NCBI RefSeq assembly: GCF_900176035.1
Contig: NZ_FWWT01000015.1
Location: 1-64,000, forward strand
Source: Desulfonispora thiosulfatigenes DSM 11270
GTDB taxonomy: Bacteria; Bacillota; Peptococcia; Peptococcales; Desulfonisporaceae
Direction of reading: 5' to 3'
Length of the DNA: 64,000 nt
Each line of letters opens with the position of its first letter. The stretch's first letter is position 1. The notes beneath the pieces were generated by a model. The model did not search any database, was not told the DNA's origin, and worked only from the letters and a program-made list of their open reading frames with translations. The translations under genes and the position numbers were made by a program. This document shows positions 10,078 through 60,230 of this stretch, in pieces.

Positions 10078-10195
10078 AAGGATAATTTTTTATCATAAGT
10101 GAAGCAATAGCGAGTTCAAAGTCTTCCTATAATTGCCGTAGCTACTTTCTTTAACATTGATTGAGCGTGCGTAGCGTTGATAAAAAATTATCCTT
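10078..10195 (+). repeat. structured palindromic repeat, copy A (internally deleted)
   Basis: Perfect 18-bp inverted termini AAGGATAATTTTTTATCA / TGATAAAAAATTATCCTT enclose GAAGCAATAGCGAGTTC and GAGCGTGCGTAGCGTTGATAA, sequences shared with copies at 34.6 kb, 59.8 kb and 60.1 kb. Compared with the 174-bp copy B, it lacks the central hairpin: the left AGCGAG is joined directly to what follows the right AGCGAG. It lies between divergent putP and purC. The outermost base positions are accurate to about 1 nt. Confidence 0.8.
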
Positions 10196-22664: not shown

Positions 22665-22691
22665 AAAAAATAACTAAAATTAGTTTTCTTT

Positions 22692-22776
22692 TTTGCATCC
22701 CTACGGTAGTACTAACTACATCAGGTTCAAAGGGACAGGATTATTCATCCATCTCAGCCAGTGGCGCCCCTGCAAA
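22692..22776 (-). promoter_or_regulatory. TPP riboswitch (thi box) of thiC
   Basis: The minus strand carries the conserved TPP aptamer: GGGGCGCC, GCTGAGATGG, CCTTTGAACCTGAT, AGTTAGTACTACCGTAGGGA, closed by P1 TTTGCA/TGCAAA. These are the pyrimidine-binding (CTGAGA) and pyrophosphate-binding (ACCTGAT...GTAGGGA) elements. High TPP should promote the following terminator and lower thiC expression. Confidence 0.97.
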
Positions 22777-23052
22777 TATACGATATTTAATTTGTAACCA
22801 TATATTAACATGGAATTTTATAATTGTAAAGGTATATTTTTCTGCACAAATGATTAATCTTATTTAATTAATGTTATTATAATATGAAAAGGTGATTTAA
22901 TGGTATAAGCTAAAGGAAATATATTTTATATCATTAAACATTAAATAGTTTTAATAATTTATGAGATAACTTGAAAGAATAGATATAGATATGTTTTCAC
23001 GCGGGATTTTGGTTTATAATGGATGGGTAATTATTTGGAAGGTGATGATTGT

Positions 23053-24995: not shown

Positions 24996-25060
24996 TATAA
25001 TCTAGGCTACGTACGCTCATTCCTTTGAATTTGCCCGAGCATATGTAGCCTAGATAATTA
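24996..25060. repeat. structured palindromic repeat, copy E (short)
   Basis: ATCTAGGCTAC (25000-25010) pairs with GTAGCCTAGAT (25045-25055), and GCTC with GAGC inside. The 3' half (TTTGCCCGAGCATATGTAG) resembles the TTGCCCGAGCGTGCGCAG end of copy B, so it appears to be a short member of the same family. It fills the gap between convergent nadE and thiE and may also act as a bidirectional terminator, although no T-tract is present. Confidence 0.55.
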
Positions 25061-27335: not shown

Positions 27336-27371
27336 AATAAAAAAAAGCACAAACTATAGTAGTGTGCTTTT
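27336..27371 (-). terminator. riboswitch-controlled terminator upstream of thiD
   Basis: Minus strand AAAAGCACA / TGTGCTTTT with an 11-nt loop and a T-rich tail, between the TPP aptamer and the thiD ribosome-binding site. Confidence 0.82.
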
Positions 27372-27380
27372 GAAAATAGA

Positions 27381-27474
27381 CACACTTTCCTACGCTGGTT
27401 TTATCCAGATCAGGTTTAAAGGGTTAAAGATAAAGGTCTTTTTCTCAGCTAGCCGTTCTAGCTCCCCTAGTGTA
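27381..27474 (-). promoter_or_regulatory. TPP riboswitch of thiD-thiM-thiE
   Basis: Minus strand shows ACACTAGGGGAGC, an 11-nt P3 hairpin region, GCTGAGA, ACCCTTTAAACCTGATCTGG, and CCAGCGTAGGAAAGTG, i.e. the full TPP aptamer with P1 ACACT/AGTGT. Second TPP switch of the window; both thiamine units are thus under the same ligand control. The 230 bp between it and the next gene show no further element. Confidence 0.96.
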
Positions 27475-27709
27475 GTACTAATATAATATTTAACCTTTTT
27501 ATACTATCATGTTATTATAATGGTGAGAAAAGTCAAGACTTTGGGGATAATAAGGGGAAATAAACTTACTGTCTACGATTATTATTCAGAAAATATATAT
27601 CAGCTAAAAGTTAAATCATGTTTTACCACAAAAACTATTGACAAAGGTGTATAATAATAGATAAGCATTTTTTAGCAGGGATATTAATATTTATAGAAAA
27701 AAATAAGGA

Positions 27710-34508: not shown

Positions 34509-34579
34509 GTGTAAATTATGATAATCAATACTAAAAGGAATCCTCTACCAGCACAACAAATCTTTTAATAAACCCTAAA

Positions 34580-34753
34580 GGTAATTTGTTATCATAAACG
34601 AAGCAATAGCGAGATTAAATAAAAAGAGCGCAGGTAATTGCAGATAGGAATACTTTGCTGTTTGAGCGCTAGCGAGTTCAAAGTATTCCTGCAATTGCCG
34701 GAGCTCCTTCCAATTAATTGCCCGAGCGTGCGCAGTGTTGATAACAAATTACC
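34580..34753 (+). repeat. structured palindromic repeat, copy B (full length)
   Basis: 174 bp. Inverted termini GGTAATTTGTTATCA / TGATAACAAATTACC. Inside is a second hairpin in which GGAATACTTTG pairs with CAAAGTATTCC, and its loop carries TGTTTGAGCGCTAGCGAG. Further shared blocks are GAAGCAATAGCGAGATTAAA and GCCCGAGCGTGCG. It sits in the convergent gap before the TSUP gene, whose stop codon lies inside the right terminus. Confidence 0.85.
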
Positions 34754-35501
34754 AACCAAACAATAACTTAATCGCCATCACAGAAACCATGACAATCAAT
34801 ACTCTCTTAATCCAAACATCACCCTTATTAATCGAAAAATTACTGCCTAAATAGCCACCTATACCATTTCCCACAGCTAAAACCAAACCAAAAATCCAAT
34901 CCACATTACCACTAATAATAAAAACCACTAAAGAAGAAAGGACATAAAAAAAGGTCACAATTACCTTAATACTGTTAATACTTACTAAAGATAAAGAAGA
35001 TAGCAGAGTCAAACTAGTAATAATAATAAACCCAGTGCCTGCCTGTAAGAGTCCACCATAAATTCCCATAAAAAAGAAGGTAATTCCCAAGATAATTTTT
35101 TTCTTTTTAGTTAATTCTTCTTCAACATCTTCAGCCTTTTTCTTTGGCTTTTTAATTAATGTAAAAATAATAATAAACATAACTACGGCTAAAATTTTAT
35201 TAAAAACTTCATCGGGAATAGAAATTGCTATTCGGGATCCTACAATCGAACCTAAGACAGCTGGAATTGATAAGGTAATACCTAATTTATAATCAAAAAA
35301 TCCTTTTCGCTTAAAGTTCCAAATTGCAATGATATTTTGCATGGTGAGAGCAACCCTATTTGTTCCATTAGCTACCGCAGAAGGGAGCCCTAAGAAAATC
35401 AACATAGGTAAGGTTAAAAGCGACCCACCACCGGCTACAACATTAATAAACCCTGCAAATGTCCCTATAAATAAAATTAACAGCACATTTAATATATTCA
35501 T
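34749..35501 (-). CDS. TSUP-family (TauE/SafE) permease
   Basis: 250 residues, about eight membrane helices in two repeats. The first half has FINVVAGGGSLLTLPMLIFLGL, the family's conserved start, and ANGTNRVAL; the second half repeats GGLLQAGTGFIIITSLTL. TSUP proteins export sulfite, sulfonates or related organic anions; this substrate is not known. ATG 35501 follows AAAAGGA; a GTG/ATG frame extends to 35531 without an SD. Its last codons (LFGW-stop) fall within repeat copy B, indicating the repeat inserted at, or supplied, the gene's end. Confidence 0.85.
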   Translation of the reverse strand: MNILNVLLILFIGTFAGFINVVAGGGSLLTLPMLIFLGLPSAVANGTNRVALTMQNIIAIWNFKRKGFFDYKLGITLSIPAVLGSIVGSRIAISIPDEVFNKILAVVMFIIIFTLIKKPKKKAEDVEEELTKKKKIILGITFFFMGIYGGLLQAGTGFIIITSLTLLSSLSLVSINSIKVIVTFFYVLSSLVVFIISGNVDWIFGLVLAVGNGIGGYLGSNFSINKGDVWIKRVLIVMVSVMAIKLLFGW

Positions 35502-35656
35502 AAAATCAGTCCTTTTCTCTACGCTAACCATATATTAACATAATACGGATTATGCTTAAACATTTATTACCTATAAAGATAATCTATCTTATGTACGAAA
35601 ACTGTTTTAGACTAAATAATTTTTTTGTTTAAGTATGTTTTAAGGATAAGTCAAAC

Positions 35657-59315: not shown

Positions 59316-59774
59316 ATGAAGAAAGTTTTATTTATTTGTACAGGTAACACCTGTAGGAGCAGTATGGCAGAAGCAATTGCAAAAAAAATAATTTCAGAAA
59401 ATGCAGAATTTGAAAATATATTAGTAGCTTCTGCTGGTGTTTATGCCCTAGCAGGAGATAAGGCAAATGATCACGCGATTATAGTTGCTCATGAAAATGG
59501 AGCAAATTTAGAGAATCATATGGCCCAATTACTTAGTCACGAATTAATCAAAGAAGCAGATTTTATTTTTACAATGACAAGCTCTCATAAAGGACAAGTC
59601 CTAGCTATGTATCCTGAAGCAGAGCATAAGACGTTTTTATTAAAGGAATATGCAAATGACCCGACCCTTGAAGTAATGGATCCTTTTGGACAATCTTTAG
59701 AGGTATATCGGCAAACTTATCAGGAATTAAGTAATTTAATTTCGGAAATTCTGCCTAAGGTTCAGGGGCTTTAA
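59316..59774 (+). CDS. ywlE: protein-arginine-phosphatase-type LMW phosphatase
   Basis: 152 residues. P-loop CTGNTCRSS (Cys8, Arg14) with Thr12, the residue that favours phospho-arginine over phospho-tyrosine in YwlE (tyrosine phosphatases have Ile there), and the general-acid MDPFGQS. It likely reverses McsB-type arginine phosphorylation. Specificity is inferred from that Thr and from the ywl context. Confidence 0.9.
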   Translation: MKKVLFICTGNTCRSSMAEAIAKKIISENAEFENILVASAGVYALAGDKANDHAIIVAHENGANLENHMAQLLSHELIKEADFIFTMTSSHKGQVLAMYPEAEHKTFLLKEYANDPTLEVMDPFGQSLEVYRQTYQELSNLISEILPKVQGL

Positions 59775-59780
59775 AGGAAG

Positions 59781-59962
59781 AAAGGTGAATTTATTATAGG
59801 CGCTACGCACGCTCGGTCAAAAAAAGGAAGGAGCTCCAGTAATTGCAGGAAACCCTTAAACTCGCTATCGCTCAAACAGTAAGGGCTTCTTATCTGCAAT
59901 TACCTCCGCTCTTTTTATTTAATCTCGCTAATAGCTTCGCTTATAATAATAAATTCACCTTT
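59781..59962 (-). repeat. structured palindromic repeat, copy C (inverted orientation)
   Basis: Read on the minus strand it aligns along its length with copy B: GCGAAGCTATTAGCGAGATT, an AGAGCGGAGGTAATTGCAG block, central hairpin (CCCTTA/TAAGGG) with loop TGTTTGAGCGATAGCGAG, and GACCGAGCGTGCGTAGCG. Its own inverted termini are AAAGGTGAATTTATTATA / TATAATAATAAATTCACC, different from B's but paired with each other. 6 bp after ywlE. Confidence 0.85.
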
Positions 59963-60051: not shown

Positions 60052-60230
60052 AAGACTATTTGTTATTATAAGTGGAAAAATTGCGAGTTCAAATCAAAAA
60101 GCGTAGGTAGCTTTAGATAAGAATGGATCCGCTGTTTGAGCGATAGCGAGTTCGGGCCATTCCTAAAGCTATCGGAGCTTATTCCGTTTAACTGTCCGAG
60201 CTTTTTGGAACGTTGATAACAAATTGTCTT
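60052..60230 (+). repeat. structured palindromic repeat, copy D
   Basis: Termini AAGACTATTTGTTAT / ATAACAAATTGTCTT (one mismatch). Central hairpin with GAATGG/CCATTC and TAGCTTTAG/CTAAAGCTA, whose loop is TGTTTGAGCGATAGCGAG. Opposite in orientation to copy C and 90 bp from it. Together they fill the 530-bp gap between ywlE and rpiB. Confidence 0.85.

Follow-up and report, generated by a model that had tools for sequence, protein, structure and literature searches.

The imperfect palindrome at positions 34,580 to 34,753 of the 64,000-nucleotide stretch of Desulfonispora thiosulfatigenes DNA analysed here (the window) almost certainly belongs to a real family of structured, dispersed DNA hairpins. 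Our reading, to which we assign a probability of about 0.55, is that these are non-autonomous interspersed elements, REP- and ERIC-like in habit and distributed across phyla, the apical loop of which would be read by a protein acting in trans. The main point, a loop shared word for word with other phyla on stems of unrelated sequence, was out of sight for the preliminary description of this DNA, which was made from the window alone.

Anatomy of the element and its copies

The reference copy lies where it had been placed before (Table 1), and its terminal and inner stems are GGTAATTTGTTATCA/TGATAACAAATTACC and GGAATACTTTG/CAAAGTATTCC, respectively. The loop previously assigned to this copy, GAGCGATAGCGAG, has to be corrected to GAGCGCTAGCGAG. 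Its core, GAGC[GNNA]GCGAG, can fold back on itself as a mini-hairpin that contains tandem G-A pairs. A TauE/SafE-like gene (34749-35531, minus strand) has its 3' end at the element, with the stop codon within the terminal stem.

Table 1. Features of the element family in the window and loci of insertions into the loop
Feature	Position or loci	Strand	Remarks
Full element, reference copy	34580..34753 (widest bounds 34578-34755)	+	Imperfect palindrome, about 174 nt
Terminal stem, 5' arm	34580..34594	+	Pairs with 34739-34753; fold, covariation
Left conserved island GAAGCAATAGCGAG	34600..34613	+	Mostly unpaired; alignment
Middle stem, 5' arm	34633..34642	+	Pairs with 34690-34699; fold, covariation
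Conserved GATA bulge, asymmetric	34643..34646	+	5' side; fold, alignment
Inner stem, 5' arm	34647..34657	+	Pairs with 34679-34689; sequence variable among copies; fold, covariation
Apical loop CTGTTTGAGCGCTAGCGAGTT	34658..34678	+	21 nt, common to several phyla; sequence matches
Inner stem, 3' arm	34679..34689	+	Fold, covariation
Middle stem, 3' arm	34690..34699	+	Fold, covariation
Right conserved island GCCCGAGCGTGCGCAGTG	34720..34737	+	Alignment
Terminal stem, 3' arm	34739..34753	+	Fold, covariation
Full element	59781..59962	-	7 nt past stop codon of phosphatase-like gene 59316-59774
Full element	60052..60230	+	BLAST, fold
Deletion derivative	10078..10195	+	Left half of inner hairpin lost between AGCGAG direct repeats
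Remnant	24996..25060	+	Inverted duplication of right basal arm; fills gap between two convergent genes
Loop-insertion loci	L338-L347, L351, L363, L371, L372, L407		Clostridium G064 and G080

Five window elements had been described as sharing sequence blocks. Those starting at 34580, 59781 and 60052 are full copies, whereas the other two are without the full loop block, the deletion derivative because it lost half of its inner hairpin and the rebuilt remnant because it consists of basal sequence only, with a left arm that copies the right one. Genome-wide BLAST, with similarities far beyond chance (E=1e-87 to 1e-13), led to a total of about a dozen copies, the further ones being located on four other contigs (C7, C13, C14, C16) and farther along the contig of the window, C15. 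With identities of 71-83% between the own copies and the reference copy, this lineage of elements may now be inactive. Just past the window end (C15, 64074-64394), left ends of the element are arranged in tandem with a period of about 73 nt, followed by a full copy.

Paired change in the stems and a loop common to several phyla

Stems that differ between copies and yet pair each with its own partner had been reported from the window, and this was borne out by the alignment of nine full copies from the same genome, in which 92.5% of the stem cells are paired and 24 of 46 pairs show changes on both sides. Double-changed cells numbered 70, compared to 22.7 +/- 4.0 after shuffling (none of 500 shuffles reached 70) and to 16 at most when the arms were slid by 1-3 columns. 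Similarly, in 12 rows from Clostridium, of which eight represent one orthologous site and the remaining four neighbouring or different sites, 96.8% of the cells are paired and 29 of 80 pairs are double-changed, with 78 double-changed cells against 24.8 in shuffled and at most 12 in slid alignments. Aligning the copies with the genome and with relatives, as had been proposed, thus gave double changes above shuffles in both sets, and paired change around constant loops, also described earlier, was seen in the own copies, in orthologous Clostridium copies and across phyla.

This paired change had been taken as the mark of selection on structure. The change itself is real; alone it is no proof of selection on RNA, as the arms also convert each other. 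Since the left arm of 24996-25060 duplicates the right one, down to the normally unpaired island GAGCGTACGTAGC, templated correction from arm to arm seems, from the sequence, to happen and could contribute to paired change; the remnant is likely a fossil of intrastrand template switching within a palindrome. Template switching alone might even generate all paired change without selection on the fold, in line with this rewritten arm and with double changes that occur in blocks. Nevertheless, arm correction by itself is insufficient because the unpaired islands, the bulge and the apical loop persist as non-complementary sequence elsewhere and across phyla, which pure correction would erase, and we consider this explanation very improbable.

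A search of a species-genome collection for the loop 20-mer TGTTTGAGCGATAGCGAGTT gave at least 113 exact loci, with a chance expectation of about 0.5. The matches listed fall into about eight phyla, by record title Bacillota, Bacteroidota, Pseudomonadota, Desulfobacterota, Cyanobacteriota (Gastranaerophilales, Hydrococcus), a genus of Deferribacterota (Mucispirillum), Aquificota and a Parcubacteria bin, where single phyla could be due to contamination as several of the loop-carrying records are metagenome bins. At nearly every locus the 20-mer forms the tip of a hairpin whose sequence is otherwise unrelated. In 50 non-redundant elements the first eight positions flanking the loop are 85% Watson-Crick paired, compared to 42% on average and never more than 49% when right arms were shuffled among the elements. 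A member of a different family within the order (locus L034, genome G003) also has a related loop, on different but pairing stems.

Two letters at the loop centre are free (TTGAGCG-NN-AGCGAGT); the motif is a mirror repeat, so a backward-pattern control is uninformative for the free-centre search. Copies fetched regardless of their loop mostly have GNNA centres (GATA, GTAA, GTCA, GACA, GAAA, GCTA) or GNA centres (GAA), with GC/GC closing and GA/GA flanking. As DNA mini-hairpins, d(cGNNAg) and d(cGNAg) have an unusual stability, tandem sheared pairs are possible for GA/GA, and the conservation of the loop may be explained by the stability of such a mini-hairpin. Copies from Pseudomonadota, Bacteroidota and Gastranaerophilales (L035, L057, L064, L038, L040, L063 and similar) carry a second short hairpin of the TTTCTTT...AAAGAAA type at a similar distance after the long one, which is absent from the own and the Clostridium copies. 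Three tandem copies were observed in a Burkholderiales bin (L057), with spacers that are CCTTCGCTGCGCTCAGG-type palindromes and have a loop, GAGCGCAGCGAAG, resembling that of the element.

The loop is also a site of insertion. Contigs of Clostridium G064 end inside the apical loop, with similar junctions in G080, and in 15 of 15 distinct junctions from these two species the loop centre is joined to the ends TAAnnTGTACCC / GGGTACAnnTTA, in both orientations. Left halves end with GAGCGNTAG and right halves begin with TAGCGAG, which, as read from separate halves, would fit a 3-bp duplication. A relative of the inserted sequence in G464 encodes rve, rve_2 and HTH_21 domains together with a HTH_Tnp_2 first frame, the organisation of the IS3 family. 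Such insertions, whose ends differ from those of the element, were the only cases of a gene between the arms in the own genome and two Clostridium genomes. Related insertion sequences in G464 and G466 are located in the loops of terminator-like hairpins. Insertion at the apex parallels the targeting of REP sequences by the IS3-family elements IS1397 and ISKpn1 (PMC1525189).

Genomic placement and the choice between DNA and RNA

Copies occur in 53 convergent vs 16 divergent gaps (p=9e-6), and their orientation to tandem neighbour genes is random (40 vs 44). The distance between a stop codon and the start of the copy ranges from a few bases to a few tens in 26 of 27 Clostridium copies, and about nine of 12 own copies lie just behind such a codon. 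Across lineages, copy number is about 10-40 and element length 170-290 nt, with outer ends of TTTTTCTT...AAGAAAAA in the Clostridium form. The loop motif had no match among phages, viral contigs and plasmids, nor in 5,426 E. coli genomes; full elements of three lineages, when compared with plasmids, matched nothing beyond a 58-nt piece of a Variovorax megaplasmid.

Twelve loci of the Clostridium clade around CF012 have a copy, intact or truncated, that adjoins the same gene, and in four of these 12 orthologous copies the apical part is gone while the basal stems remain. At another Clostridium site (L326) the element is present in one of eight genomes, with an unrelated terminator hairpin or other sequence in the seven relatives. 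These patterns indicate that copies pass down by descent, degenerate through internal deletions and appear or disappear from one species to the next. A joined-flank search led to occupied and unoccupied sites and to no base-exact empty site, and no target-site duplication is visible at the own copies. At G075:C26:3700-6450, two copies of opposite orientation enclose a segment of several genes, where the relatives G464, G461 and G466 have a single intact or truncated copy, which suggests that genes were gained or lost when elements recombined with each other.

The hairpins could form in DNA or in RNA. Mismatches with a Watson-Crick pair on either side were counted in a way that favours neither kind. 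Strict counting of 98 non-redundant elements gave 52 G-T vs 35 A-C mismatches (p=0.09), with G-T at about 0.8% of positions; loose counting gave 67:35 and 15:5 in two sets (82:40 pooled), and A-G exceeded C-T by 42 to 21. An RNA family of such divergence is expected to contain far more G-U. With G-T barely above A-C and random orientation to genes, the balance favours pairing in DNA rather than RNA, beside which a weak strand preference remains. Of the earlier term 'structured RNA/DNA element', the structure was therefore retained, whereas these two counts make its RNA side the less likely one.

A structured non-coding RNA, either a transcript of its own or a 3' UTR element, with stems held in pairing by selection on the RNA fold and a loop binding a protein or a second RNA, would nevertheless account for the strong covariation and the constant loops, and the excess of A-G over C-T together with that of loosely counted G-T hints at one folded strand. 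We regard it as unlikely, since the G-T share is low for an RNA family, orientation is random, loop centres are mostly GNYA rather than GNRA, there is no Rfam match, and the flanks of the copies are unrelated, so that they share no promoter. Position behind stop codons, the convergent excess and random orientation could likewise reflect bidirectional 3'-end elements of benefit to the host (terminators or protection of mRNA 3' ends), which would be kept without being mobile. Balanced G-T and A-C would then result from transcription of both strands between convergent genes, and at one orthologous site several relatives indeed have an ordinary terminator hairpin instead. However, a terminator needs neither a 20-nt loop conserved across phyla nor internal islands, the apex-less orthologous copies mentioned above persist, and the Clostridium ends are unlike a stem followed by a U-tract, which leaves this proposal with somewhat poorer prospects than an RNA.

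Relation to known families and proposed mechanism

Rfam searches at gathering score of the window and 18 loci returned only TPP riboswitches, T-boxes and tRNAs, and no family that matches the element; two of the TPP riboswitches (RF00059) are in the window at 22680-22781 and 27370-27478, minus strand. Likewise, the family was not found described in the open-access literature, searched by motif and topic. The statement that the element could not be matched to a named family still holds within these sources, and a REP/MITE-like dispersed element, as suggested at first, is the best class for these repeats.

ERIC sequences (IRU) are enterobacterial and about 127 bp in length. They resemble the element as long intergenic imperfect palindromes with internal deletions and no known mobiliser, but the element is cross-phylum and its loop motif is absent from the E. 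coli genomes; this distinction is drawn from descriptions and a search with the loop motif. MITEs derived from insertion sequences are similarly short and non-autonomous with inverted terminal arms, whereas here no target-site duplication was seen, no parent insertion sequence with the same ends was found, and the whole element folds and covaries. The attC sites of integrons are hairpins recognised by structure, with variable stems and extrahelical bases, a type to which the element is similar; compared by these traits only, it differs in that neither cassette arrays nor a replication-strand bias were seen. Orientation to replication was 34:30 in Bacillota carriers (10-16 kb GC-skew windows), where a weak 65:45 preference of a first set was not repeated, and lagging-strand single-stranded transposition of the IS200/IS605 type is thus unsupported.

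REP sequences are hairpins of 20-40 bp, one end of which carries GTAG or CGTC in unpaired form (PMC3733652), and the REP/PU/BIME families with RAYT transposases are tagged in this way (PMC3733652, PMC2817692). Common to both are interspersed intergenic chromosomal palindromes with variable stems and a short constant motif, occurrence in several phyla and targeting by IS3-family elements. Such resemblance, in particular the insertions into the loop (PMC1525189), could point to a REP/REPIN family moved by a RAYT (Y1 HUH) transposase. Yet the aligned element ends are without GTAG or CGTC, the constant motif is a 20-nt apical loop instead of a tagged foot, the elements have several stems and conserved internal islands, are 4-10 times longer than REP, and occur in tens of copies at most (about 10-40) and not in hundreds. 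Moreover, a REP/RAYT family implies a RAYT (Y1_Tnp) gene in the genome, as a rule with the repeats at its sides. Y1_Tnp is absent from the own genome and from seven of 24 carriers, all of 30 Y1_Tnp loci of carriers lacked the motif within 1.5 kb, and no mobile-element family was among the top 25 in a neighbour-gene enrichment of 150 proteins, flanking genes being ordinary. A RAYT/Y1 transposase was therefore rejected as the mover and a REP/RAYT origin is hardly credible; the elements are REP- and ERIC-like in habit, yet outside the REP definition. Clostridium G064, G074, G075 and G080 have several Y1_Tnp proteins per genome (about 305-330 aa), and at least one Y1_Tnp locus (L169) is flanked by GGGACGGTTAAC palindromes unrelated to the loop-conserved element.

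A loop that stays identical across about eight phyla while its stems are rewritten points to a recogniser that acts in trans. In our preferred reading of the family as interspersed DNA hairpins, the loop strand of each copy would fold into a multi-stem hairpin with a GAGC[GNNA]GCGA mini-hairpin at its tip, and a trans-acting protein, which may be a mobiliser or else a DNA-binding protein widespread among hosts, would recognise the folded apex by its tetraloop and bulges and not by the sequence of the stems. Behind genes, new copies would be tolerated because they do little harm there, and both selection on the fold and templated arm-to-arm correction would have a part in keeping the stems paired. 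We give this mechanism, a loop-reading protein and mobility in trans, about even odds. More tentatively, the copies might represent a new cross-phylum superfamily of mobile DNA hairpins, whose GNNA-tipped loop is read by shape and sequence and which an enzyme other than a Y1 HUH transposase moves in trans, whatever the stem sequence; we hold this to be possible but rather doubtful.

For decades, to our knowledge, no mechanism of movement has been known for ERIC and similar interspersed palindromes, and the results suggest a widespread family of mobile DNA hairpins that we did not find described in the open-access literature. Its elements are precise landing sites for insertion sequences and also break genome assemblies, and their stems are a natural record of the co-evolution of palindrome arms.
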